From: Anaeromyxobacter paludicola
GTDB taxonomy: Bacteria; Myxococcota; Myxococcia; Myxococcales; Anaeromyxobacteraceae
DNA length: 64,000 nt
Assembly (NCBI RefSeq): GCF_023169965.1
Contig: NZ_AP025592.1
Span: forward strand, 3,534,001 to 3,598,000
Reading direction: 5' to 3'
How positions within the stretch are numbered: the first letter of the stretch is position 1; each line of letters begins with the position of its first letter. Below the pieces are notes generated by a model. It was not told where the DNA came from, did not search any database, and was given only the letters and a program-made list of their open reading frames with translations. This document shows, piece by piece, positions 2,288 through 21,730 of this stretch. The position numbers and the translations under genes were made by a program.

Positions 2288-4701
2288 GGCTTCGGCAGGA
2301 ACCAGACGCCCGGCTCGGTCCGCAGCGCGTCGTGCTCGGCGCCGGCGCCGAGGCCGGAGGAGACCACCACCGGGAAGCCGGGGCGGATCTCGCGCAGCCG
2401 CGCCACCACCTCGCGGCCGGTCATGTCGGGCATCATCATGTCCACGATGGCGAGGTCGAGCGCGCCCTGGTCGGCGCGGAACCGCTCCACCGCCTCGGCG
2501 CCCCCGGCGCACTCCACCACCTCGTGGCCGCAGCTCCGGAGCAGCAGCCCGAGCGACCGGCGCACGTTGAGCTCGTCGTCGGCGAGCAGCACCCGGAGCG
2601 CCGGGGAGGGCTCGGGGGCCGCGGCGCGCGCCGGGGCTGCGGCGGCTGCGGCGGCCTGCTCGGCGGCGAGCGGCAGGAGGAGCGCCACGCAGGTGCCCCG
2701 CCCCACCGCGCTCTCGACCGTCACCGCCCCGCGGTGCGCCTGCACTGTGCCGTACACCTCCGCGAGGCCGAGCCCGGAGCCCTGGCCCACCGGCTTGGTC
2801 GTGAAGAACGGCTCGAAGAGGTGGGCCCGCTCCTCCGGGCTCATGCCCACGCCGGTGTCGCAGACCCGCACCTGCACGTGCGGGCCCGGCTCGAGGTCGA
2901 ACGGGAGGGCGGCGCACGCGGCCGCGTCGAGGTCCACCCGCCGGGTCTCGACCGTCAGGTCGCCGCCCTGCGGCATGGCGTCGCGGGCGTTGAGCGCGAG
3001 GTTGAGCAGCGCGGCGTGGAGCCGGTCGGGATCCCCGGTGACCCGCGCCGGCCCGTCCGCGAGCGCGCTCCGCACCGCGATCCGCTTGTCCACCGCGTGC
3101 GGCAGCAGCCCGAGGACGTCCTCCACCATCTGGTTCACGTCCACCGCCACCGCGCGCGGCGGCTCCTTGCGCGCGAAGTTGAGGAGCTGGCGGGTGAGGC
3201 CGGCCGAGCGGAGCGCCGCGTCGCGGATCCGGTCGGCCACGGCGCGGAGCTCCCCCTGGCCGGCGAGCGCGGCCCGGAGGTGCTCGGCGCCGTTCACGAT
3301 GCCGGTGAGCTGGTTGTTGAAGTCGTGGGCCACCCCGCCCGCGAGCCGGCCGATGGCCTCGAGCTTCTCCGATTGCCGGAGCCGCTCCTCCATCTCCCGC
3401 CGCTCGGTCACGTCGCGCCCCACGCCGACGATCTCCACCACGCGCCCCTCGGCGTCGCGGATGGCGGTGTCGGCCCAGGCGAGCCAGCGCCAGCCGCTCA
3501 CCGTGAGCGCCCGCTGCTCCATGTAGGCGGCCCACGGCGGACGGAAGAGCGCCTCCATGGCGCGCGCGGTGGGCACGCGGTCGTCCTCGTGGACGAGCGG
3601 CATGAAGCCGCGGCCGAGCAGCTCCGCCTCGGTCTTGCCGAAGGTGCGGCAGTAGCTCGGGCTCGCGAAGAGGAACCGGCCGGCGACGTCCACCTTGACC
3701 ACGAGGTCGGTCTGGTTCTCGACCAGGAGCCGGTAGTCCTCCTCGCTCTCGCGCAGCGCCGCGGCCGCCCGCTGCCGGTCCTCCACCACGCTCGCGAGCA
3801 CCATCACGGTGAGGAAGACCACCCCGCAGAAGAGCTGGGCCGCGAGCGCCCCCTGCGACGGCGCGTGGGCCACCGCCTCCAGCGCGAACACGCCGTGGCC
3901 GGTCACGGTGGCCGCGAGCGCCGCCAGGATGACGAGGAAGCCGAGGCCGGTGGCGCCCCGCAGCCCGAAGCGCAGGGCCGCCCAGACCAGCACCGGGATG
4001 AGCAGCACCTCGGTGCGGTGCGCCCCGGAGGGCGGCGCCAGGAAGACGATCCAGGCCGCGGCGGCGAAGGCGGTGAGGAGGCCGGCGCGCTCCAGCGGCC
4101 GTCGCGCCGGGAGGCCGGGCCGCTCGCGCGGCCCCGCCCAGGCGAGGAGGAGCCCGCCCACCGCGACCTGCCCCAGCCCGGAGCCGGCCCAGAGCTCGAG
4201 CCAGAACCGGGTGAAGGTGGGCCCGCCGCCCCCGGCGAGCAGGGCGGCCGGGCCGACCTCGAGGAGCCCGGTCGCGAGCACCGGGCCGGCGGCGACGAAC
4301 GCGAGCACGTGCCCGGTGCGCTCGAGGCGCGGCGGCCCCTCGCAGGCGCGCAGCGTGAGCCAGGCGCTCGAGGCCGCGAGCAGGACGTTGCTCACGGCGA
4401 AGGTCGCGACCAGCGCGAGCCCCTGCCCGGCGAGGTAGTTGAAGAGCGCGATGGGCAGGCTGCCGGCGAGGAGGAGGGGGAGCCACGACCGCCGGCGCTC
4501 GGCGAGGAGCAGCCCGGCCACCAGCAGGCCGGCGGCCGGCCAGAAGAGCGCGACCCGGGAGGCCCCGGGGGTGAGCGCCAGCCCGAGCCGGCACAGGGCG
4601 TAGCTCGTCACGGCGAACAGCCCGAGCCGCGCCGCGAACGGCGTCCGTCCGAGCCAGGCCGCGGCGCGGGACGGCTCGGGGGCTGGGACGCGTTCGGACA
4701 T
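2224..4701 (-). CDS. MASE1-PAS hybrid sensor histidine kinase with C-terminal receiver
   Basis: Membrane hybrid kinase of about 825 residues. The first 310 or so residues are a MASE1-like block of hydrophobic helices. A PAS domain follows (about 330-440), then a HisKA box with [12 protein letters not shown], a HATPase domain ([21 protein letters not shown]) and a receiver with the phospho-acceptor in [11 protein letters not shown] chose the ATG at 4701 ([10 protein letters not shown]) because the in-frame sequence upstream is Arg/Gly-rich and does not look like protein. The 3' end overlaps gspD on the other strand. No partner gene is adjacent, so the attached receiver probably relays the signal. 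The ligand is unknown; MASE1 kinases sense varied cues. Confidence 0.88.
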
Positions 4702-4824
4702 GGCTCGCTCGCCGGCGGGGAGCGGGTGCCCCGCCCGGTCCGGCCACTCTACGGCCAGCGCTCCGCGCTCGCCAACTCCGCGCGTGCCCGCGACCCGCCG
4801 CCAGGATGCGCGCCCGGGACCCCA

Positions 4825-4840
4825 GCGCACGCCTCTTGCG
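4825..4840 (+). promoter_or_regulatory. weak sigma-54-like promoter match
   Basis: GCGCACG-N4-TTGCG resembles the -24/-12 consensus TGGCACG-N4-TTGCW with a good -12 half. It lacks the usual GG at -24. It sits about 55 bases before the lipoprotein start at 4894. This is a weak candidate only. Confidence 0.2.
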
Positions 4841-4893
4841 CGCCGGGCCGGGGAGGAACTCTGTAGAGGTGCAAGAACCAGCAGGGGGGTCCC

Positions 4894-6396
4894 ATGCGCG
4901 GAGTCCAGACCAGGTGCGTCGTCGCGCTCGCTGGCATGGTGCTCGCCTGCGGAGGCGGCGGAGGCGTCACCGGCCTGAGCACGCCACCTTCCCCCACGCC
5001 CACGCCGTCACCCACGTCCTCGCCCACGCCGGCGCCGGGACCGACCGCGACCCCGAGCCCCCCGCCGACCCCCACGCCCTCGCCGACGACGACGCCTGCC
5101 CCCACGGCGACCCCGGCGCCGACCCCGACGCCCGCTCCCACCCCGCCGCCCACGCCGGCGCCGACCGCGACGCCGACCCCCGTGCCGACCCCCCTGCCCA
5201 CGCCGAGCCCGACGCCGACCAGCGGCGGCCTCCTCTCCGGCGCCACCCGCTGGGTCCAGGTGCTCTCGACCTCCGGAGACGACCGGGTCTGGGGCGTGGG
5301 CGCGGACCGCGCCGGCGAGGCCTTCCTGCTCTGGTTCGACGGCGCCGCGGGGGCGCTGCGGCTCGGGCGCGCCTCCGCGAGCACGACCACGCTCCTCGGG
5401 AGCTTCAACGCGGCCAAGCTGCAGAGCGCCGAGCTCGACGTCGGTCCGGACGAGGCGCTCTACCTCGGCGCCACCGGGCAGGAGACGCCGTACCCCTACG
5501 TCATCGACCTCGGCGGTGGCCCGCAGGGCGTGTCGCAGATCGCCCGCTTCGGCCTCGACGGCCGCTTCGCGAGCGTGGTGGACCGCTGCGGCCTCGACTG
5601 CGAGCGCCACGTCCTCGCGGTGAGCGCCCGGGGCGACGTGGTCGTCGCCATGTCGGGCGCCTTCCAGCTCGAGACCGACCTGATCCGGGCCGACGGGGCC
5701 CGCCTCCCGCTCTTCGCCAACTCGCTCGGCGCCATCACGGGACCGCTCGCCGACATGGGCTGCTGGGCGGCGGCGTTCGGGCCCGACGGCAACCCCGTGT
5801 GCGGCGGCATCACCGCCAACGGCGCGGCGGTCATGCCCGGGCTGGTGGGCCAGGCCACCTTCGCGGGCCACCCCGCGGTGGCGAAGCTCGACCTCGCCGG
5901 CCGCGTCCTCTGGCGGCAGGCGCTCGGGGTCACCGGCCTCGTCACCGGCCTCGGCACGAGCGCGCTGGGCACGGTGGTGGCCGCGGGCGCCTTCACGGGC
6001 AAGGCCCGCTTCGGCACGGACGACCTCGACCGCTCCGGCGGGGCCTTCGCCGGGTTCCTCGCGACCATCGAGGCGAACGGAGCGCCGCGGTGGGCCCGGC
6101 AGCTCGACGATCCGGCGCTCGAGCTGGCCGTGGATCCGGCGGGGCGGGCGGCGGTCTGCACCGAGGCGGCGCACTGGCCCGGCGGGACGCCGGCCGGGGC
6201 CTCGGCCACCCTCCGCTACTACGATCTCGCCGGCGCCCTGCACTGGACGCGGCCGCTGCCGCCGCGCCTGGGCGGGCTCGCCATCCGGGCCGGCGACGTC
6301 CTCATGGGCGGCACCTGGCTCGGGAGCTTCGACTTCGGCGCCGGGCTGGCCACGTCGAGCGGGGACGATGCCTACCTGCTCGACGTGGCGCCCTGA
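4894..6396 (+). CDS. lipoprotein with long Pro/Thr linker and propeller-like domain
   Basis: 500-residue predicted lipoprotein. A short signal sequence ends in MVLAC, a plausible lipobox, followed by a glycine run. Residues about 30-110 are an almost pure Pro/Thr/Ser/Ala linker, presumably a flexible spacer holding the globular part off the membrane. The remainder has repeated blade-like segments (for example [20 protein letters not shown]), resembling beta-propeller repeat proteins common in myxobacterial genomes. No catalytic motif was recognised. A ribosome-binding site (GGGGGG) lies just before the ATG. It stands alone, between the kinase and a convergent small gene. Surface exposure is inferred. 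Confidence 0.8.
4981..5222 (+). repeat. low-complexity Pro/Thr coding repeat
   Basis: C-rich degenerate repeat (cccacgccg, ccgaccgcg and similar units) encoding the PT linker of the lipoprotein. The units are irregular, as expected for a repeat that changes length by slippage. Confidence 0.85.
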
Positions 6397-6409
6397 GGGG
6401 CGGGGGCGG

Positions 6410-6766
6410 CTACTTCAGCGGCTTCGGCGCCGGCTTGCCCTTCTCGAAGGCGGCGCCGTCGCCGAACCTGGCCACGATGGCCTTCTTCGTGTCGAGGCCG
6501 GTGGCCTGGATGACGAAGTTGGGCACGCGGCGGGCCCGCTTGTCGGCCACCCACCTCGTCACCTCGACCCGGGGGCGCGAGCGGCCGCGGCGGGCCAGGC
6601 CGGCCGGCGCGGAGGCGGCCGCGCCGGGCGAGAGGCTCTTCTCGAGCTCGCGGGCGGCGATGTCGGCGACCGAGCGGGCGATCGCGGAGGAGACCTGGGC
6701 GACGACCTCGGCCGCGGCGGTCTGGATGATCTGCTCGAGGGTCTGGGCGGTGGTGGGACGGGGCAC
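6410..6766 (-). CDS. small conserved-looking protein of unknown function
   Basis: 118 residues starting at a GTG preceded by GAGGAG at good spacing. Longer versions of the frame start in sequence that does not look coding. The N-terminal half (TLEQIIQTAAAEVVAQVSS) is predicted amphipathic helix. The middle is Arg-rich, and the C-terminal part (VRNFV-like core and GLDTKKAIVARFGDG) looks like a small folded basic domain ending in KPAPKPLK. There is no signal peptide. I do not recognise the family; a nucleic-acid-binding role is possible because of the basic C-terminus, but that is a guess. It converges with the lipoprotein gene. Confidence 0.65.
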   Translation of the reverse strand: MPRPTTAQTLEQIIQTAAAEVVAQVSSAIARSVADIAARELEKSLSPGAAASAPAGLARRGRSRPRVEVTRWVADKRARRVPNFVIQATGLDTKKAIVARFGDGAAFEKGKPAPKPLK

Positions 6767-6917
6767 GTGGCGCTCCTCGACGAAAGGGCCGGATTGTCCG
6801 GTGGGGGGCCGGCGATTTACCGCGACATTGTGCGCCAGGCAAGCCGAACGCGGCCCGCGGGCATTCGGGGCCGCCGGCATTGGCTCGACGATTGCGCCGG
6901 AAAAATGGCGCGGCCGG

Positions 6918-7979
6918 TCAGCGGAGCGCCTGGGCGAGGGCGTCCGCGACCTCCCGGGTGGTGGCGCGCCCGCCCAGATCGCGGGTCCGCGTCGCCGGAT
7001 CCGAGAGGACGGCCTCGATCGCGCGCTCCACGTCCCGGGCCGCCTCCGGGTGGCCCAGGTGCTCGAGCATCATGGCGCCCGACCAGACCTGCGCCACCGG
7101 ATTGGCGATCCCCTTGCCGGCGATGTCGGGGGCCGAGCCGTGCGTCGGCTCGAACATCGAGGGCGCGGTCCGCTCGGGGTTCACGTTGCCGGAGGCGGCC
7201 ACGCCGATGCTGCCGGCGATGGCGGCGCCGAGGTCGGAGAGGATGTCGCCGAAGAGGTTGCTCGCGACCACCACGTCGAACCAGTCCGGGTGCTGGACGA
7301 AGTGCGCGCTCAGGATGTCGATGTGGTACTGCGCCGTCCGCACGCCGGGGTGGCGCGCCGCCATGAGCGCGAAGCGCTCGTCCCAGAACGGCATGGAGTG
7401 GAAGATGCCGTTCGACTTGGTGGCGGAGGTGACGTGCCCGCGCCGGCGCCCCGCCAGCTCGAAGGCGTAGGCCAGGATCCGGTCCACGCCGCGGCGGGTG
7501 AACACCGCCTCCTGGATCACCAGCTCGTCGTCGGTCCCCTCGTAGATCCGCCCGCCCATCTTCGAGTACTCGCCCTCGTTGTTCTCGCGCACCACCACGA
7601 GGTCGATGTCCTTCGCCGCGCGCCCCGCGAGCGGGGTGGTCACGCCCGGGAGCAGCTTGAGGGGCCGGACGCAGGCGTACTGCGCGAAGCCGCGCCGGAT
7701 GGGCAGCAGCAGCCCCCAGAGCGAGACGTGGTCGGGCACCCCGGGGTAGCCGACCGCGCCGAGGAAGATGGCGTCGGAGGGGCGGAGCTGGTCGAGGCCG
7801 TCCTCGGGCATCATCTGGCCGGTCCGCGCGTACCGCTCGCAGCTCCAGTCGTACTCCTTCCAGGCCAGCTCGAAGCCGTGCCGGCGCCCGGCCGCCTCCA
7901 GGACCGAGATGGCGGCCGGCACCACCTCGCGGCCGATGCCGTCGCCGGGGATGACCGCGATCTGGTGACGCGTGCGCAT
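6918..7979 (-). CDS. tartrate/D-malate-type decarboxylating dehydrogenase
   Basis: 353-residue member of the isocitrate/isopropylmalate dehydrogenase superfamily, NAD-dependent and metal-requiring. It opens with IAVIPGDGIGREVVP and has the substrate loop Arg residues, VVVRENNEGEYS, the catalytic Lys region TSATKSNGIFHSMPFWDE, metal-binding Asp residues in SNLFGDILSDLGA, and the NAD-binding EPTHGSAPDIAGKGIANP. The ENNEGEY motif and wording of the active site fit tartrate dehydrogenase/D-malate dehydrogenase (TtuC/DmlA) better than LeuB or Icd. Substrate cannot be fixed from sequence alone. A GGAGGG site precedes the ATG at 7979. It is a single gene. Confidence 0.88.
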   Translation of the reverse strand: MRTRHQIAVIPGDGIGREVVPAAISVLEAAGRRHGFELAWKEYDWSCERYARTGQMMPEDGLDQLRPSDAIFLGAVGYPGVPDHVSLWGLLLPIRRGFAQYACVRPLKLLPGVTTPLAGRAAKDIDLVVVRENNEGEYSKMGGRIYEGTDDELVIQEAVFTRRGVDRILAYAFELAGRRRGHVTSATKSNGIFHSMPFWDERFALMAARHPGVRTAQYHIDILSAHFVQHPDWFDVVVASNLFGDILSDLGAAIAGSIGVAASGNVNPERTAPSMFEPTHGSAPDIAGKGIANPVAQVWSGAMMLEHLGHPEAARDVERAIEAVLSDPATRTRDLGGRATTREVADALAQALR

Positions 7980-8337
7980 GAGCCCTCCGGGAGAGGCGGG
8001 AGAGGATAGCGCAGGCGGGAGGGCGGCGCGCCGATCCCGCCCGAGCGCGCGCCGCACCTCTTCGATCCCTTCCGGCGCGGCGACGCCGAGCGGCCGGAGG
8101 GCGAGGGCTGGGCTCGGGCTCTTCGTCGTGCGCGAGGTCGTGCCGGGCCACGGCGGGAGCGCCCCATCCATGACCGGAACCGGGTCCGTCCCGACGCGTT
8201 CCTGTCGCGGAGGGACTCCCACGGAGACGACCGGTCGAACCACCCCCAACGGCCCGCGGCGGCGGGCAGGCGAGCAGCCGATACTCCCCTCCGGCACCCG
8301 GCCGTGGGCCGGGGCGTCCATCCCGGGAGGGAGGCCG
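7980..8337. other. 358-base non-coding region between divergent genes
   Basis: Spacer between the dehydrogenase (minus) and the b561-like gene (plus). It should carry both promoters, but no strong sigma-70 or sigma-54 match was seen. A hairpin with arms CCCGGCC and GGCCGGG (8297-8313, loop GTG) lies in the leader of the b561-like gene, just before its GGGAGGGAGG ribosome-binding site. Confidence 0.5.
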
Positions 8338-9099
8338 ATGATCGCCGCCAGCTTTGCCGCCGCGATGCTCGTGGCACAGTTCCCCTCGGGCCCGGAGCCC
8401 CACCTCCTCGACGGCCCGCTGCGCCCTCCCGTCCTGCTCGCGCTCTCGGCGCCCGCCCCGGGCGGCTCGCCGCTGCTGCTCCGGGTCTCCGAGGCGGAGC
8501 CGCCGCAGGGCGGCGCCGGGGGCTCGGGTGAGCAGGGCGCCCCGGGCGAGGGCGCCAAGCCGCCGTCCCCGCCGCCGCGGCCGCCGGGCGCCCGTCCGGC
8601 TCCGGGCACGCTCGACTTCGACCTCCTCGGCGCGCCGCAGCAGCGCGAGAAGGTGGACGAGCACGCCCTCCGCCTGCGGCGCACCCTGCTCACCTGGCAC
8701 CAGGGGGTGGGGCTCGGGATGTTCGCGCTGCAGCTCGCCACGACCGCGGTGGGCCAGCTCAACTACGGCGACAAGTTCGGGGGCGACAACACCGGCAAGT
8801 ACGTCCAGCCCCACGCCATCCTCGCGGCCGGCACCCTCGCGGCCTTCGCCGCGACCGGCGCCCTGGCGCTCTTCGCCCCCTCGCCGGTCCGGCGCGACGA
8901 GGGCTTCGATCGGGTGTCGCTCCACAAGTACGCCATGCTGGTGGCCACGGTGGGCATGGTCGCGCAGGGCGTGCTCGGCGTCTGGACGCAGTCGCGCGAG
9001 GGCTACCTGAACCAGCAGTCGATCGGGACGGCGCACCTCGCCATCGGCTACGTGACGCTCGCCGCGGTCGCGGCCGGCGTGAGCGCGCTCGTGTTCTGA
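8338..9099 (+). CDS. four-helix membrane protein, b561-like di-heme candidate
   Basis: 253 residues with a signal-like N-terminus, a Gly/Pro-rich linker, then four predicted membrane helices in the last 150 residues. Each helix begins with a histidine: TWHQG, QPHAI, LHKYA and TAHLA. Because alternate helices face opposite sides, His from helices 1 and 3 could ligate one heme and His from 2 and 4 a second, as in cytochrome b561. The ATG at 8338 has an excellent ribosome-binding site. YceI and a c-type cytochrome lipoprotein follow in the same operon, supporting an electron-transfer role. Heme binding is inferred; no database family was confirmed. Confidence 0.72.
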   Translation: MIAASFAAAMLVAQFPSGPEPHLLDGPLRPPVLLALSAPAPGGSPLLLRVSEAEPPQGGAGGSGEQGAPGEGAKPPSPPPRPPGARPAPGTLDFDLLGAPQQREKVDEHALRLRRTLLTWHQGVGLGMFALQLATTAVGQLNYGDKFGGDNTGKYVQPHAILAAGTLAAFAATGALALFAPSPVRRDEGFDRVSLHKYAMLVATVGMVAQGVLGVWTQSREGYLNQQSIGTAHLAIGYVTLAAVAAGVSALVF

Positions 9100-9115
9100 C
9101 AACGAGGTCCATGTG

Positions 9116-9661
9116 ATGCCCGGCGCGCTCCTGTCCCTGCTCCTCGCCGCCGCCCTGCCGGCCGGCTCCTTCTCGGTGGACGCCCCGGCGAGCGAGGTCC
9201 GCTACACCATCGTCCACAAGCTCCACCAGGTCCACGGCGTCTCGCGCGAGGCGGAGGCCCGGGCGGTGGTGAAGGAGGACGGCACCGTCCAGGCCATGGC
9301 GCGCGTGCCGGTGGTCTCCTTCCGCTCCGGGGACGGCAACCGCGACGAGCACATGCTGGAGGCGATGGAGGCGGGCAAGTTCCCCTTCGTCGTGTTCAAG
9401 GGGATCGCGCACCTCGGCCCCTCGCGCGAGCTGCCGGCGGGACCGGTGCCGTTCGAGGGCGAGGTCGAGCTGCACGGGGTGACGACGCCGCTCCAGGTGC
9501 CGCTCACGCTCGCGCCGCAGCCCGACGGGAGCGTCCGCGCCACCGGCGCGTTCGAGGTGAGCCTCGACGCGCACCACGTGCAGCGCCCGTCGCTGCTCTT
9601 CGTGAAGATCGAGGACGGCTGCCGCGTCGAGCTCGACCTGCGCATGCGGGGTGGGCGGTGA
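9116..9661 (+). CDS. YceI-family periplasmic lipid/isoprenoid-binding protein
   Basis: About 181 residues with a signal peptide (LLSLLLAAALPAGS) and a YceI fold: SEVRYTIVHKLHQVHGVSREAEA, FRSGDGNRDEHMLEAMEAGKFP, the conserved EGEVELHGVT, then a C-terminal strand pair. YceI proteins are lipocalin-like barrels that bind polyisoprenoids and are often neighbours of cytochrome b561 genes. Start may be the ATG at 9116 or the GTG just before it. The stop overlaps the next gene's GTG by four bases, so the two are probably translationally coupled. Confidence 0.9.
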   Translation: MPGALLSLLLAAALPAGSFSVDAPASEVRYTIVHKLHQVHGVSREAEARAVVKEDGTVQAMARVPVVSFRSGDGNRDEHMLEAMEAGKFPFVVFKGIAHLGPSRELPAGPVPFEGEVELHGVTTPLQVPLTLAPQPDGSVRATGAFEVSLDAHHVQRPSLLFVKIEDGCRVELDLRMRGGR

Positions 9662-10101
9662 GCGGCCGGGCCCTCCGGGCGACCCTGGCGCTCGCCGCCC
9701 TCGCGGCCTGCACGCCGGAGAACGGGCCCACCATGCGCCCGGGCGAGGACTGCCTGAGGTGTCACGGCGGCAGCCCGGCCAGCGGGGGCGGGGAGGAGGA
9801 GCGCGCGACGCCGTGGAGCCTCGCCGGCACGGTCTACGCCGCGCCGGGGGCCGACGCGAGCGCCGGGATCGAGGGGGCCGCGGTGCAGGTGACCGACGCG
9901 AACGGCTTCGCGTTCACGCTCACCTCCAACCTGGTCGGCAACTTCTACTCGGCCGAGACGGTGGCCTTCCCCATCCGCGTCTGCGTGGCGCGCGGCGGCG
10001 CGGTCCGCTGCATGGAGAGCCCGTCGCCCCACGGCGCCTGCAACGCCTGCCACGCGCTGCCGCCGCAGGGGAACGCGGAGGGGCGGATCGCGGCGCCGTA
10101 G
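9658..10101 (+). CDS. lipoprotein with two CXXCH heme-c motifs
   Basis: 147 residues. The signal peptide ends in a lipobox (LAAC), so the protein is likely membrane-anchored in the periplasm. Two heme c attachment motifs are present, CLRCH after the lipobox and CNACH near the C-terminus. Between them is a small beta-rich domain (LAGTVYAAPGADASAGIEGA) like a carboxypeptidase-regulatory or transthyretin-like fold. It overlaps the YceI gene by four bases and ends at a bidirectional terminator. It is the likely periplasmic redox partner of the upstream b561-like protein, which is inference from context. Confidence 0.82.
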   Translation: MSGRALRATLALAALAACTPENGPTMRPGEDCLRCHGGSPASGGGEEERATPWSLAGTVYAAPGADASAGIEGAAVQVTDANGFAFTLTSNLVGNFYSAETVAFPIRVCVARGGAVRCMESPSPHGACNACHALPPQGNAEGRIAAP

Positions 10102-10788: not shown

Positions 10789-11196
10789 CTAGCGCTTCGG
10801 CTCGGACGCGGTCCAGCGATCGTAGGCCTGCAGGTCGTAGAGGGTCGTGAAGCCCTTCTCGCGCAGGGCCTCGGCGGCGATGCGGGTGCGGTGGCCGGTC
10901 CGGCAGTAGAGCAGCACCGGCGTGGAGGGCGGGCCGATCTCGGCGTGGCGCGCCGCCATCTGGTCGTGCGGGATGTTGAGCGCGCCCGGCACGTGCCCGG
11001 CCGCGTACTCGGCCGGCGTCCGCACGTCCACCACCTTTACCCCGCTCGCGACGAGCCGGTGCGCGGTCGGGCCGTCCACGAGCCCGGGCGCGACGCCGGC
11101 CACCGGCCCCTGCGCCGGAGCCGCGGCGCGGGCGGAGCCGGCCAGCAGGGAGAGGGTGAGGAGCGCCAGCCGCGTGGTCTGGGGTCGGATCCGCAT
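10789..11196 (-). CDS. secreted single-domain rhodanese-like protein
   Basis: 135 residues with a signal peptide (LALLTLSLLAGSARA), so probably periplasmic. The rhodanese domain has VVDVRTPAEYAAGHVPGALN and the active-site loop LLYCRTGHRTR with the catalytic Cys. It could carry persulfide sulfur or act as a redox or oxyanion-binding protein. The ATG at 11196 fits the signal peptide; the ribosome-binding site is poor. It lies 59 bases after the DUF2064 glycosyltransferase gene in the same direction. Confidence 0.88.
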   Translation of the reverse strand: MRIRPQTTRLALLTLSLLAGSARAAAPAQGPVAGVAPGLVDGPTAHRLVASGVKVVDVRTPAEYAAGHVPGALNIPHDQMAARHAEIGPPSTPVLLYCRTGHRTRIAAEALREKGFTTLYDLQAYDRWTASEPKR

Positions 11197-11255: not shown

Positions 11256-11924
11256 TCAGAGATGCCGCGCCAGCCGCGCCCGCTCCTCGGCCGTGAGCCG
11301 CCCGCTCGCGAGCAGCCACTCGAGGTCCTCGGGGAGGTCCACGTCCCGCTCCGGGGGAAGCTCGCGGCAGCGCCAGCCGAGGCGGGCGATGCGGGCGCGG
11401 GTCTCGGCGAGCACCGCCGAGCTGCCCCAGGGCACGCCGTCGAAGAGCGACGGGTGGAGCCGCGAGAGCCCGATGGCCGCGTAGCCGCCGTCCTCGGCCG
11501 GCACGAGGACCACCTCGGCGCCGTCCCACAGGGCCCCGCGCGCGGCGGCCAGCTCCGCCGGGCCGAGCGCCGGGCAGTCGGTCCCCACCAGCACCACCGG
11601 ACCGGCGGCGAGGTGCGCCTCGAACGCGGCCCGCATCCGCGCGCCGAGGTCGCCCTCGGGCTGGTCGCGGAGCGCGAGCCCGGGCAGGCGGCGCACGGCG
11701 TCGAGCCCCGGCGCGTGACGGTCCGGCGCGCACCAGAGCGCCGCCTCGTCGAAGCCGGCGGCGAGGACGGCCCGGGCCGTGCGCTCGAGCAGGAGCGCGT
11801 GCAGCGCGGCCGCGCCCTCGGGGCCGAGGCGCGGGATGAGCCGGGTCTTGGCGAAGCCCGGGATGGGCGCCTTCGCCAGGATCGCCGCCGTCGCGCGGCG
11901 CGCCGTGGCGGGTGGCTCAGCCAT
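11256..11924 (-). CDS. DUF2064/TIGR04282-type glycosyltransferase
   Basis: 222 residues, GT-A/nucleotidyltransferase-like fold. It opens with AAILAKAPIPGFAKTRLIPRLG, the usual substrate-nucleotide loop of this family. VVLVGTDCPALGPAEL is the family's central TDCP motif and AEDGGYAAIGL is the DGGYxxxGL motif. Proteins of this group regularly sit next to TIGR04283 transferases and ArsS in arsenosugar-type clusters, as here. It overlaps the upstream TIGR04283 gene by eight bases. The actual donor and acceptor are not known. Confidence 0.9.
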   Translation of the reverse strand: MAEPPATARRATAAILAKAPIPGFAKTRLIPRLGPEGAAALHALLLERTARAVLAAGFDEAALWCAPDRHAPGLDAVRRLPGLALRDQPEGDLGARMRAAFEAHLAAGPVVLVGTDCPALGPAELAAARGALWDGAEVVLVPAEDGGYAAIGLSRLHPSLFDGVPWGSSAVLAETRARIARLGWRCRELPPERDVDLPEDLEWLLASGRLTAEERARLARHL

Positions 11925-12597
11925 AGCGCCGCGCCAGGTCGGCCGGGTCGCGCCCGGCCCAGAAGAGGAACCGCAGCCACCACATGAGCAGGACGGTGCG
12001 GAGCACGCCGCGCGACTCCCAGCGGCGGCCCGAGGTGACGACCCGCTCGCGCAGGCAGGCCGGGCGCCCGGCGCGGCGCAGCGCCGCCGAGAGCGCCAGA
12101 TCCTCCATGAGCGGGATCTCGGGGAAGCGCCCGGCGGCCTCGAACCGGGCCCGCCGCACGAAGATGGCCTGGTCGCCGGTGGCGATCCCGGTGAAGCGCG
12201 AGCGCCAGCTCACGAGCCGCGCCACGAGCGGCAGGAGCGGGTGGCGCCCGGCGATCGCGAGGTCGAACCGCCCCCAGTCGCGGCGGCCGCCGGCGAGCGC
12301 GGCGCGGACGGCGGCCACCGCGCCGGGCGGGAGCCGGGTGTCGGCGTGCAGGAAGAGGAGCAGGTCGGCCCGCGCCGCCGCCGCCCCGGCGTTGAGCTGC
12401 GGCCCGCGGCCCCGCGGCGCCGAGAGCACCGCGTCGGCGAGCGGCCGGGCGAGCGCGGGGGTGCCGTCGCGGCTGCCGCCGTCCACCACGATCACCTCGC
12501 ACCCCTCCGCCCGCAGCGGCTGGAGCGGCGCCAGGTGGGCGGCGATCCCGGCCGCCTCGTCGAGCGTCGGGACGACGATGGAGAGGACCGGCGCCAT
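11917..12597 (-). CDS. TIGR04283-type family 2 glycosyltransferase
   Basis: 226 residues. GT2 core: LSIVVPTLDEAAGIAAHL, EVIVVDGGSRDGTPALA, the metal-binding LLFLHADTRLPPGA, and GDQAIFVRRARFEAAGRFPEIPLMED for the acceptor side. C-terminal hydrophobic/aromatic helix (LLMWWLRFLFWAG) may bind membrane. The ATG at 12597 shares one base with the stop of the TVP38 gene (TGATG), which fixes the start. The family pairs with TIGR04282 and ArsS in putative arsenosugar loci. Confidence 0.9.
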   Translation of the reverse strand: MAPVLSIVVPTLDEAAGIAAHLAPLQPLRAEGCEVIVVDGGSRDGTPALARPLADAVLSAPRGRGPQLNAGAAAARADLLLFLHADTRLPPGAVAAVRAALAGGRRDWGRFDLAIAGRHPLLPLVARLVSWRSRFTGIATGDQAIFVRRARFEAAGRFPEIPLMEDLALSAALRRAGRPACLRERVVTSGRRWESRGVLRTVLLMWWLRFLFWAGRDPADLARRYG

Positions 12598-13342
12598 CAC
12601 CGGCCCCCGCCGCGGCCCGCGCCCGGGAGCGGGGCGGCCCGGGCCTCGGCGGCGCCCCGGAGCGCCCGGCGGCCCGCGAGCCAGTAGAGCGCCAGGAGCG
12701 CGGTCGCGAGCGAGAAGCCCCAGCACAGCACCCGGACCGAGCCGGTGAGGCTCTCGCCCAGGTACGAGTAGAGGAGCGTGGCCGGAAGCTGCCCGAGCCC
12801 GGTCGCCGCGAGGAACGGCCAGAAGCCGATGGCGGTGAGCCCGGCGCCGTAGCTCACGAGGTCGAACGGCACGAAGGGCAGGAGCCGCGCCAGGAGCACC
12901 GCCCACCGCCCGTGCCGCGCGAAGAACCGATCGGCCCGCTCCAGCGCCGCGGCCCCGCCGGCGAGCCGCTCCACCGCCGGCCGCCCGAGCGCGCGCGAGA
13001 GCCAGAAGCAGAGCGCCGCGCCGGCGAGGGCGCTCGACCAGGAGAGGAGCGCGCCCCAGGCCCACCCGAAGAGGAGCCCGTTCGCGAAGGTGATGACGAA
13101 GGCCGGCAGCGGCGCGACGACCGCCTGCAGCACCATCAGGGCGGCCGAGGCGACGGGGGCCCAGGGACCGAACCCGCGCAGCCAGGTCCGGGCGGCCTCC
13201 ACGGCGCGCCGCGCGTCCGGGAGGGAGAGGGCGCGGACCGCCTCGTCCACCGCCGCCCGCACCGGCGGGACGAGGTAGGCGCCCGCCCCGAGCGCGAGCA
13301 CCCCGAGGGCCGCGGCCGCCCCGGCGCGTCCGCCGCCGAGCC

Positions 13343-13346
<4 letters not shown>
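12597..13346 (-). CDS. TVP38/TMEM64 (DedA-like) membrane protein
   Basis: 249 residues with about six membrane segments. The conserved SNARE-associated/VTT core is clear: PAFVITFANGLLFGWAWGAL, the charged RLLPFVPFDLVSYGAGLT motif with Pro-Phe, and GQLPATLLYSYLG. Related proteins act as lipid scramblases or flippases. The start is GTG at 13346, which overlaps the stop of arsS by four bases (GTGA); the longer reading frame upstream is low-complexity and discarded. Its presence inside the glycosyltransferase cluster suggests lipid-linked substrate handling, but that is inference. Confidence 0.9.
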
Positions 13347-14340
<994 letters not shown>

Positions 14341-14344
<4 letters not shown>

Positions 14345-14949
14345 GGCTGGCTCCGGGCCGGGGGCCGGCCGGCCTCCGCTCGCCGCTCGCCGCGCGGGGC
14401 TCGCGCCGCCCGCTCCGCCTCGCCGAGGAGCCGCTCCAGGGCGGCGCCCGGCTCGCCGGCGCGCCAGTCGCGCTCGCCGAAGGCCGAGGCGCGCACCTGG
14501 CCGCCCGCGTCCACCAGGAAGGCCATCGGCACCCCGCCCACGCCCCAGGCCTTCGCGACCCGCTGGTCGCGATCGAGGACCACCGGCAGCTCGAGCCGGT
14601 GCGCCGCGAGGAACTGCTCCACCCGCGCCGGCCCCTCGCCGAAGTTCACGGTCACGAGCGCGAACGGCCTCGCGGCGAGGGCCGCGCGGAGGCGCGCCAG
14701 CTCCTCGAGCTCCGCCTCGCACGGCTCGCACCAGCTGGCCCAGAAGGCGACCAGCACCACCCGGCCCCGGAGCGCCTCGAGCGACACCGGCCGCCCGGCG
14801 AGGTCGGCGCCGGCGAGGGGCGGGGTGTCGCCGCGGGTCCACGGGCGGAGCGGCGCGGCGCCCCCGTCGCCCGCGGCGGGCGGGGCGGGCGCGCCGGGCG
14901 AGGCGGCGGCGAGCGCCAGGGCCGCCAGGGCGCCCACCGCTCCCGTCAC
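14341..14949 (-). CDS. TlpA-like exported thioredoxin-fold protein
   Basis: 202 residues with a signal peptide-like start (GALAALALAAASPGAPA). The AhpC/TlpA fold carries VVLVAFWASWCEPCEAELEE with active-site CEPC, VTVNFGEGP and the cis-Pro loop GVGGVPMAFLVDAGG. It probably reduces disulfides in the periplasm. The C-terminus is Arg/Ala-rich. It starts at GTG 14949, overlapping the transglutaminase stop, and its own stop overlaps arsS, so three genes are coupled. It may keep the cysteines of the operon's exported proteins reduced; this is inference. Confidence 0.88.
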
Positions 14950-18691: not shown

Positions 18692-21600
18692 ATGTTCGCG
18701 ACGCTCCGGATCGGACAGAAGATCGGCCTCGGCTTTGCCCTCGCGGTGGTCCTCGCCGCGGTGACCGCGGCGGTGAGCTACCGCTGCTCCTCGGAGGTGG
18801 CCTTCCAGCTCGACGACATCGCGAGCCACAAGGTGCCGAGCATCGACGCCCTGCAGGTGATCAACGAGGCCCAGACCGCCATGGCGGGCGCGGCCAACGG
18901 GCTCGTCTCCCGGCGCCTCATGGATCCGCAGTTCCGCGGCCGATTCTACAAGGACTTCGAGGCGGCCCAGAAGCGGTTGGACGCGGGCTTCAAGGACTAC
19001 GAGGCCCTCCCCCACGGGCCGAAGGCGCTGGAGAAGTGGAAGGCGATGGCGAAGCCCTGGGCCGAGTGGCGCGCCGCGGCGGAGCAGGTCGCCGCCCTGG
19101 CGCACCAGAAGGACGGGCTCCTCTCCGGCGGCGCCGCGGTGGAGGACCCGCGCGTCCTCGAGCTCGACCGCAAGAGCGTCGAGTGCCTGCTGCGGCAGCT
19201 CGCGGCCTTCGACCCGGCCACCGACGCCATCAACGCCGTCATCGACCAGACCAAGGCCGACGTGAAGACGCGGGAGGACGAGGCGATGGGCTCGGCGCGC
19301 GCCCAGAACGTGACCCTCGGGGTCTCGCTCCTCGTCTCCGCGGGGGTGCTGGCGCTCCTCGGCGTCCTGCTCTCCCGCGGCATCTCCCGCATCCTCGCCG
19401 CGCTCTCCGGGGAGTCGCGGAAGCTCACCGAGGCGGTGGCGCAGGGCGACCTCGCGGTCCGCGGCGACCTCTCCCGGGTCAGCTTCGAGTTCCGTCCCAT
19501 CGTGGAGGGCATGAACTCGACCATGGACGCCTTCGCGAAGCCGATCGGCGTGACCGAGGACTACGTCACCCGGATCGCGCAGGGCGACCTGCCGCCCAGG
19601 ATCACCGACGAGTACCGGGGCGACTTCGGGGCCATCAAGGAGGCGCTCAACGGCTGCATCGAGAACCTCTCCGCGCTCATCGGCGAGATGAACCGGATGA
19701 GCGCCGACCACGACCGGGGCGAGATCGACGCGGCCCTCCCGGCGGAGCGGTTCCAGGGCGCCTACCGGAAGATGGCGGAGGGCGTGAACGGGATGGTCTT
19801 CGGCCACATCGCGGTGAAGAAGAAGGCGATGGCCTGCGTGGCGGAGTTCGGGAAGGGGAACTTCGAGGCGCCGCTCGAGAAGTTCCCGGGCAAGAAGGCG
19901 TTCATCAACGACACCATCGAGGAGGTGCGCCGGAACATCCAGGCCTTCATCGGCGAGATGAACCGGATGAGCGCCGACCACGACCGGGGCGAGATCGACA
20001 CCGCCATCCCGGTGGAGAAGTTCCAGGGCGACTACCGGAAGATGGCGGACGGCGTGAACGGGATGGCCTTCGGGCACCTCGCATTGAACAAGAAGGCGAT
20101 GGCCTGCGTGGCCGAGTTCGGGAAGGGGAACTTCGCCGCGCCGCTGGAGAAGTTCCCGGGCAAGAAGGCGTTCATCAACGACACCGTCGAGGAGGTGCGG
20201 CGGAACATCCAGGGCTTCATCGCCGAGATGAACCGGATGAGCGCGGAGCACGACCGGGGCGACATCGACGTCTTCATCCCGGCGGAGAAGTTCCAGGGCG
20301 ACTACCGGAAGATGGCGGAGGGCGTGAACGGGATGGTGGCGGGGCACGTCGCCCTGAACAAGAGCGCGATGGGGTGCGTGGCGGAGTTCGGGAAGGGGAA
20401 CTTCGAGGCGCCGCTCGAGAAGTTCCCGGGCAAGAAGGCGTTCATCAACGAGACCATCGAGCAGGTGCGGTCGAACCTGAAGGCGCTCATCGCCGACGCG
20501 AACGGTCTCGTGGAGAAGGCGGTGGCGGGCGACCTGAAGTACCGGGCCGACGCGCAGCGGCACCTGGGCGACTTCCGGAAGATCGTGGAGGGCGTGAACG
20601 CGACGCTCGACGCGGTGCTGAAGCCGATCCAGGAGGCCGCGGCGGTCCTGGACCAGCTGGCGGAGCGGAACCTGACGGCGCGGGTGCAGGGCGCCTACCA
20701 GGGCGACCACGCCCGCATCAAGGACGCGCTCAACGGCACGGCGCAGGCGCTCGACGAAGCGCTCGGGCAGGTGTCGGCGTCGGTGGGGCAGGTGTCCTCG
20801 GCGGCGAGCCAGATCGCGTCGTCGTCGCAGGCGGTGGCGAGCGGGGCGTCGGAGCAGGCGGCGAGCCTGGAGGAGACGTCGTCGAGCCTGGAGTCGGTGG
20901 CGTCGATGGCGCGGTCGTCGGCGGAGCACGCCATCCAGGCGGACGCGCTGGCGCAGGGGGCGAAGGGGTCGGCGGTGGAGGGCGCGGCGGCGATGGAGCA
21001 GATGCAGGGGGCGATGGAGAAGATCCGGTCGTCGGCGGAGGGCACGAGCGCCATCATCCGGGACATCAACGAGATCGCCTTCCAGACCAACCTGCTGGCG
21101 CTGAACGCGGCGGTGGAGGCGGCGCGGGCGGGCGAGGCGGGGCGGGGCTTCGCGGTGGTGGCGGAGGAGGTGCGGAGCCTGGCGATGCGGAGCAAGGACG
21201 CGGCGCAGAAGACGGAGGCGCTCATCCAGCAGTCGGTGAAGCAGGCGGCGGAGGGGGCGCAGACGTCGAAGCACGTGGCGGCGAAGCTCTCGGAGATCGT
21301 GGGGTCGATCGGGAAGGTGACCGAGATCGTCGCGGAGATCACGGCGGCGGCGAAGGAGCAGTCGAGCGGGATCGAGCAGCTCAACAAGGCCGTGTCGGAG
21401 ATGGACAAGGTGACGCAGCAGAACGCGGCCAGCTCCGAGGAGTCGTCCTCGGCGGCGAGCGAGCTCTCCGGCCAGTCGGAGGAGCTCGCGGCCATGGTGG
21501 GCGCGTTCCGGCTGACCGGGCTGCAGGCCCACTACGCCGTGGCGCCGGTGCGCCGCGCCGCGCCCGCCCGCTCCCTGGCGGCGGCTGCGCCCCGGGCCGT

Positions 21601-21730
21601 CCCGCCGCGCGCCTCCGAGCCGCAGCCCAACGTCGATCCCTGGAAGAAGCCGCTCGCGCCGTCGAGCATCCCGGTGAACCCCGAGGAGGTCATCCCGCTC
21701 GAGAGCGAGCCTTTCGAGAAGCTGTTCTGA
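18692..21730 (+). CDS. methyl-accepting chemotaxis protein with three tandem HAMP-type repeats
   Basis: 1012 residues. One membrane helix lies near residues 12-30 and a second near 210-230, enclosing a helical periplasmic domain of about 180 residues. A HAMP domain follows, then three almost identical 90-residue modules (332-421, 422-511, 512-601), each with [30 protein letters not shown] and [19 protein letters not shown]. Two more HAMP-like stretches precede the signalling coiled coil, whose tip is [20 protein letters not shown] and [15 protein letters not shown]. The C-terminus has no NWETF-like pentapeptide. No che genes are in the window. Expression may depend on sigma-54. Confidence 0.95.
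19685..20494 (+). repeat. three 270-base in-frame tandem repeats in the chemoreceptor gene
   Basis: Units begin at 19685, 19955 and 20225 (each at GAGATGAACCGGATGAGC), exactly 270 bases or 90 codons apart. Long stretches are identical in nucleotide sequence, including AAGTTCCCGGGCAAGAAGGC, which suggests recent duplication or ongoing gene conversion. Confidence 0.95.

Follow-up and report, generated by a model that had tools for sequence, protein, structure and literature searches.

The window analysed here is a 64,000-nucleotide stretch of Anaeromyxobacter paludicola DNA (contig NZ_AP025592.1, positions 3,534,001 to 3,598,000), from a genome that consists of a single contig of 4.59 Mb. We focused on three tightly coupled open reading frames on the same strand (8338-10101, +), the first for a membrane protein of four helices, the second for a YceI lipocalin and the third for a lipoprotein that carries two CXXCH motifs (Table 1). 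The first gene begins with ATG, with GGGAGG just upstream, and its product carries an N-terminal hydrophobic stretch and a Pro-rich tail ahead of the four-helix core. The sequence-only reading had placed the genes correctly: the third gene opens at a GTG within the YceI stop codon, such that the 4-base overlap (GTGA, 9658-9661) is exact, and the 13-base spacer between the first two genes is true for a YceI start at GTG 9113 (16 bases for a start at ATG 9116). We found no sigma-70-like promoters or terminators around the operon. Divergent from it lies a gene for a tartrate dehydrogenase (6918-7976, -; TIGR02089 above cut-off).

Table 1. Features of the operon, in window positions; residue numbers of the membrane-protein core refer to the translation of window:8593-9096.
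Feature	Position	Strand	Remarks
Four-helix four-His membrane protein CDS (b561-like)	8338..9099	+	253 aa
Four-helix core used for alignment and model	8593..9096	+	
Invariant His36 codon, helix 1	8698..8700	+	61/61 homologues
Invariant His74 codon, helix 2	8812..8814	+	61/61 homologues
Invariant His111 codon, helix 3	8923..8925	+	61/61 homologues
Invariant His148 codon, helix 4	9034..9036	+	61/61 homologues
YceI lipocalin CDS with signal peptide	9113..9661	+	start GTG 9113 or ATG 9116; PF04264 2.8e-13
HxxH motif (HKLH), diagnostic of module YceI subfamily	9215..9226	+	31/31 module YceI compared to 1/20 canonical YceI
Di-haem lipoprotein CDS	9658..10101	+	147 aa; homologues occupy the same slot in 14 loci
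Lipobox Cys (LAAC)	9709..9711	+	Cys invariant in alignment
First haem motif CLRCH	9751..9765	+	
Second haem motif CNACH	10039..10053	+	

An AlphaFold2 model of the membrane-protein core, built from a 37-sequence alignment, has exactly four helices (residues 23-63, 71-94, 107-134 and 141-167) at a mean pLDDT of 93.9. Each helix contains one of the four invariant histidines (spacing 38, 37 and 37 residues), located near the membrane start of its own helix, as the earlier reading of these letters had claimed. Arg29-Arg30 and the Gly residues four positions past His36 and His148 are likewise invariant in the 37-sequence alignment. The His lies within 5 degrees of the conserved face in helices 2-4 and within 52 degrees in helix 1; with each helix taken singly, the conservation moment is significant for helix 3 only. 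Since successive helices run antiparallel, the four His would form two pairs, one on each side of the membrane, like those of two-haem b561 proteins.

In nearly all homologues of the membrane protein, the N-terminus resembles a Sec signal and leads into a low-complexity tail; the periplasm would then contain this tail and the His36/His111 side. The positive-inside rule contradicts this topology: Lys plus Arg average 4.3 ahead of helix 1 and 3.3 within loop 2, compared to 2.3 within loop 1 and 1.8 within loop 3. Weighing these two predictors, we tentatively favour the topology indicated by the signal peptides.

The protein had been described as b561-like, which stands as a likeness, given four helices with one invariant His each, but not as family membership. 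No Pfam or NCBIfam model reached its cut-off with the membrane protein, and in the proposed comparison to b561 and DUF4405 families, PF03188, PF01292 and DUF4405 all fell below their cut-offs. Specifically, PF01292 gave 10.4 bits with the window protein (curated 30.1; best family member 9e-5), a PF01292 search of its own genome did not include the operon site among the matches, and an HHalign comparison with 21 members of PF01292, CybB and YceJ among them, yielded a probability of 2%. PF03188 gave 14.9 bits with the full-length protein and 17 bits with the core, compared to a curated 23; 14 of the 37 family members matched it weakly (best member E 8e-4). A PF03188 search over the relatives was silent everywhere, controls included, and thus uninformative. 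DUF4405 (PF14358) had no match in the window protein and matched two of the 37 members (best 0.0012). The weak Pfam matches of family members are mostly to transmembrane haem-b or His-rich families; as far as profile comparison can tell, the link to the haem-b families is one of resemblance, not membership. A sequence search of the PDB with the family profile returned nothing credible, and Foldseek of the model against the PDB had no significant match, which leaves the fold as a prediction.

Eukaryotic cytochrome b561 (PF03188) has four consecutive core helices that each begin with a His, evenly spaced, and these His form two pairs on opposite membrane sides. The membrane protein here likewise has one His near the start of each predicted core helix, although it lies below the PF03188 cut-off and has no known link to ascorbate. 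In E. coli CybB and YceJ, His residues are more numerous and their spacing is uneven.

The second protein matches PF04264 at 50.9 bits (curated 23.7) over nearly the whole profile, and a profile of the YceI proteins from such modules matches solved YceI structures. It is distant from the other four YceI proteins of the genome (6e-13, compared to 2e-49 or better). By its motif, the operon YceI belongs to a distinct HxxH subfamily (Table 1). We also noted a Cys near the YceI C-terminus in several modules of the di-haem type; this stands out, since cysteines are said to be lacking in BcnA and its homologues (PMC9113575). It is possible that the HxxH motif and the C-terminal Cys have a ligand-binding or redox role.

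The third protein has the features of a c-type cytochrome, with a lipobox for export and the two CXXCH motifs that the sequence-only reading had reported, both kept in its relatives; the haems are predicted. The host genome encodes cytochrome c maturation functions (eight PF01578 matches). An Ig/CnaB-like beta-sandwich is predicted between the haem motifs, and Foldseek of the protein gave weak matches only, Ig/CnaB-like domains among these. In a genome of the same family (G006; locus L028, 4299-5822, -), a frame of 508 residues starts with the di-haem protein and contains ten CXXCH motifs and two CXXXXCH motifs in all; its tail matches Geobacter-type multi-haem cytochromes (PF09698/TIGR01904), whereas the window protein is the two-haem domain only. 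This fusion, with ten further c-haem motifs, is a single case.

Other cytochromes also lie near related genes. In a genome of the same genus (G001), the next gene after the module encodes SoxA/TsdA-type and class I cytochrome domains fused to a rhodanese. The window contains a separate rhodanese gene (10789-11160, -), with a domain 64% identical to that of the G001 fusion, and this similarity suggests that the rhodanese partner may have split off or moved to this position. At locus L030, a c-type cytochrome is encoded upstream of the module, as is a barrel-like protein that bears haem. Outside the modules, relatives of the di-haem protein stand alone or, at locus L194, lie beside another YceI. 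At this locus (4151-8326, +), two proteins of the di-haem type, extended by a further cytochrome domain, are followed by YceI and a one-haem barrel-like protein; a b561-like gene is absent, and this is a second di-haem/YceI association.

Homologues of the membrane protein occur in 39 of the 60 relatives and in 76 of the 156 Myxococcota genomes. Ten loci emerged from a scan of named genomes, and each lies in a MAG that carries the name Myxococcales, Anaeromyxobacter or Deltaproteobacteria. The synteny that the earlier reading had proposed to examine was clear: YceI is a same-strand neighbour of the membrane-protein gene in 51 of 61 loci, which are phylogenetically non-independent and come in some cases from MAGs, and ten loci, some of them at contig ends, have no nearby same-strand YceI. 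Among the 156 Myxococcota genomes, both the module YceI and the b561-like gene occur in 72, one of the two alone in 4 and 1, and neither in 79 (Fisher 2e-38, ignoring shared descent). Together with the conserved His, the synteny and co-occurrence indicate a gene association far beyond chance; chance adjacency of the operon genes is ruled out by the last two.

The third slot varies among these 61 loci: 14 of them encode a di-haem lipoprotein there, 35 a twin-Rieske lipoprotein of the Tat type, and two (L054 and L055) a mono-haem lipoprotein. A di-haem or twin-Rieske lipoprotein gene adjoins the membrane-protein gene in 49 loci, and 12 have no recognised neighbour of either type, partly at contig ends. 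The twin-Rieske protein, absent from the genome of the window, is unrelated to the di-haem protein and is predicted to hold two Rieske iron-sulphur clusters; its domains match PF00355 in 18 of 18 proteins, the best solved relatives are b6f Rieske proteins, and nearly all members have CxH, CxCH and an extra Cys pair in both domains. It thus shares the conserved ligand and disulphide Cys of the bc1/b6f Rieske family (PF00355), but its domains stand in tandem on a Tat lipoprotein, with no cytochrome b or c1 genes alongside. The di-haem and twin-Rieske genes never occur together on one strand at these loci. At L052, a Rieske gene fills the slot and a divergent di-haem gene lies nearby; at L027, the di-haem gene is divergent; and one genome (G027) has both types as separate modules. 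Nine genomes have the membrane protein and YceI and no twin-Rieske protein, and all of them have either a di-haem relative or a mono-haem lipoprotein (G034). On the membrane-protein tree, the minimum number of changes between carrier types is two, which marks the swap as old and rare and rules out frequent independent swaps.

The presence of unrelated carrier chemistries in one slot strongly supports electron transfer. The earlier proposal of a membrane electron-transfer module has gained strong support, from the invariant His layout, the synteny, the replacement by twin-Rieske proteins and the one multi-haem fusion. Judged from these genomic patterns, it is highly probable that the operon functions in electron transfer of some kind.

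The closest known systems are LcoA-BcnA of Burkholderia, the nearest that has been studied, and YceJ-YceI of E. coli, in both of which the gene for a four-helix His-rich membrane protein adjoins that for a periplasmic YceI lipocalin. In Burkholderia cenocepacia, both lcoA and bcnA protect against lipid peroxidation, and it was proposed that the b561 protein reduces a quinone held by the lipocalin, which then quenches lipid peroxyl radicals; relatives of YceI bind a polyisoprenoid or quinone in the barrel (PMC9113575). The operon differs from these systems in that its membrane protein lies outside PF01292, with evenly spaced His and a signal-like N-terminus, its YceI is of the distinct HxxH type, and there is an additional, third gene, which encodes a redox lipoprotein. 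The LcoA-BcnA paper (PMC9113575) makes no mention of Myxococcota, and, going by titles and abstracts, none of the papers found on YceI with Rieske or with Myxococcus describes a module of this kind.

We propose that the genes form a Myxococcota envelope electron-transfer operon, in which a b-haem membrane protein, a quinone-carrying YceI and a lipoprotein carrier act together in redox protection of the envelope, and we give this full scheme a probability of about 0.6. The membrane protein would hold two bis-His b haems, one bound by His36/His111 close to the periplasm and the other by His74/His148 close to the cytoplasm, and would connect the periplasm to the quinone pool by electron exchange. 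The periplasmic YceI would carry a quinone or other isoprenoid as a mobile redox shuttle. The carrier, attached to the membrane by its lipid anchor, would contain a pair of one-electron centres, c haems in this operon and Rieske clusters in most relatives. It would pass electrons onward at the membrane surface and tie the system to the periplasmic cytochrome network, and its two centres would match two-electron quinol chemistry. The sequences themselves show how the genes are arranged, the cofactor motifs, their conservation, the swap of carriers and the one fusion; we infer the haem in the membrane protein, the quinone as YceI ligand, the direction of flow and the antioxidant role. The likeliest use would be to give lipids and quinones of the envelope redox protection, a role also proposed for LcoA-BcnA (PMC9113575).

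We considered that electrons might instead flow inward, from superoxide or periplasmic reductants through the lipoprotein and the membrane protein to quinone, such that the membrane protein would act like the superoxide oxidase CybB. E. coli CybB is, according to work cited in PMC9113575, a four-helix haem-b protein with superoxide oxidase activity, and the SoxA/TsdA-type cytochrome that follows the module in G001 could be a thiosulphate-oxidising donor. However, this donor gene is not conserved at other loci, and, since the twin-Rieske domains belong to the high-potential class typical of bc1/b6f, transfer from quinol to carrier is the easier direction. We consider inward flow unlikely.

Anaeromyxobacter reduces metals, and the operon might be the inner part of an extracellular electron-transfer route, in which the di-haem lipoprotein would pass electrons to outer-membrane multi-haem cytochromes. 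Both the Geobacter-type tail of the G006 fusion and the haem proteins encoded upstream of the module at L030 are consistent with such a route, but the fusion stands alone and the window protein has two haems only. Moreover, the Rieske version dominates the large-genome relatives of the Myxococcaceae type, which are aerobic predators not known for metal reduction. A role in metal reduction thus seems quite improbable.

We regard as still more doubtful the idea that the operon imitates, in minimal form, the quinol-oxidising site of cytochrome bc1. The HxxH YceI would then present quinol, and its two electrons would part: the high-potential carrier, with twin Rieske clusters or twin c haems, would take one, and the four-helix membrane protein with its two haems the other. 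A non-redox core, in which the membrane-protein His would bind metal or lipid and YceI and the lipoprotein would move lipids, is very improbable: it draws on the lipid-binding fold of YceI and on a membrane protein that has neither a significant b561 fold match nor a Pfam family above cut-off, but leaves aside the redox lipoproteins, mono-haem ones included, that accompany the gene at most loci, as well as the placement of His near both membrane interfaces, as bis-His b haems require.

If the envelope electron-transfer scheme is right, it bears on the LcoA-BcnA system, which has a phenotype without a defined electron route: the Myxococcota version adds a genetically linked carrier and would offer a concrete electron path through a YceI system, with a carrier that is haem or Rieske and once fused to a multi-haem wire. 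The operon would also be a case in which evolution exchanged the redox chemistry yet retained the circuit, and its membrane protein represents a family covered by no Pfam or NCBIfam model at cut-off.

Elsewhere in the window, we noted an arsenosugar-biosynthesis cluster (11256-14350, -) with the radical SAM protein ArsS (TIGR04167) and the glycosyltransferases TIGR04282 and TIGR04283, all above cut-off; a gene between these encodes a protein that weakly resembles the transporter UptA. Further downstream (18692-21730, +) lies the gene for a large chemotaxis-transducer-like protein, the C-terminal part of which resembles Aer2.
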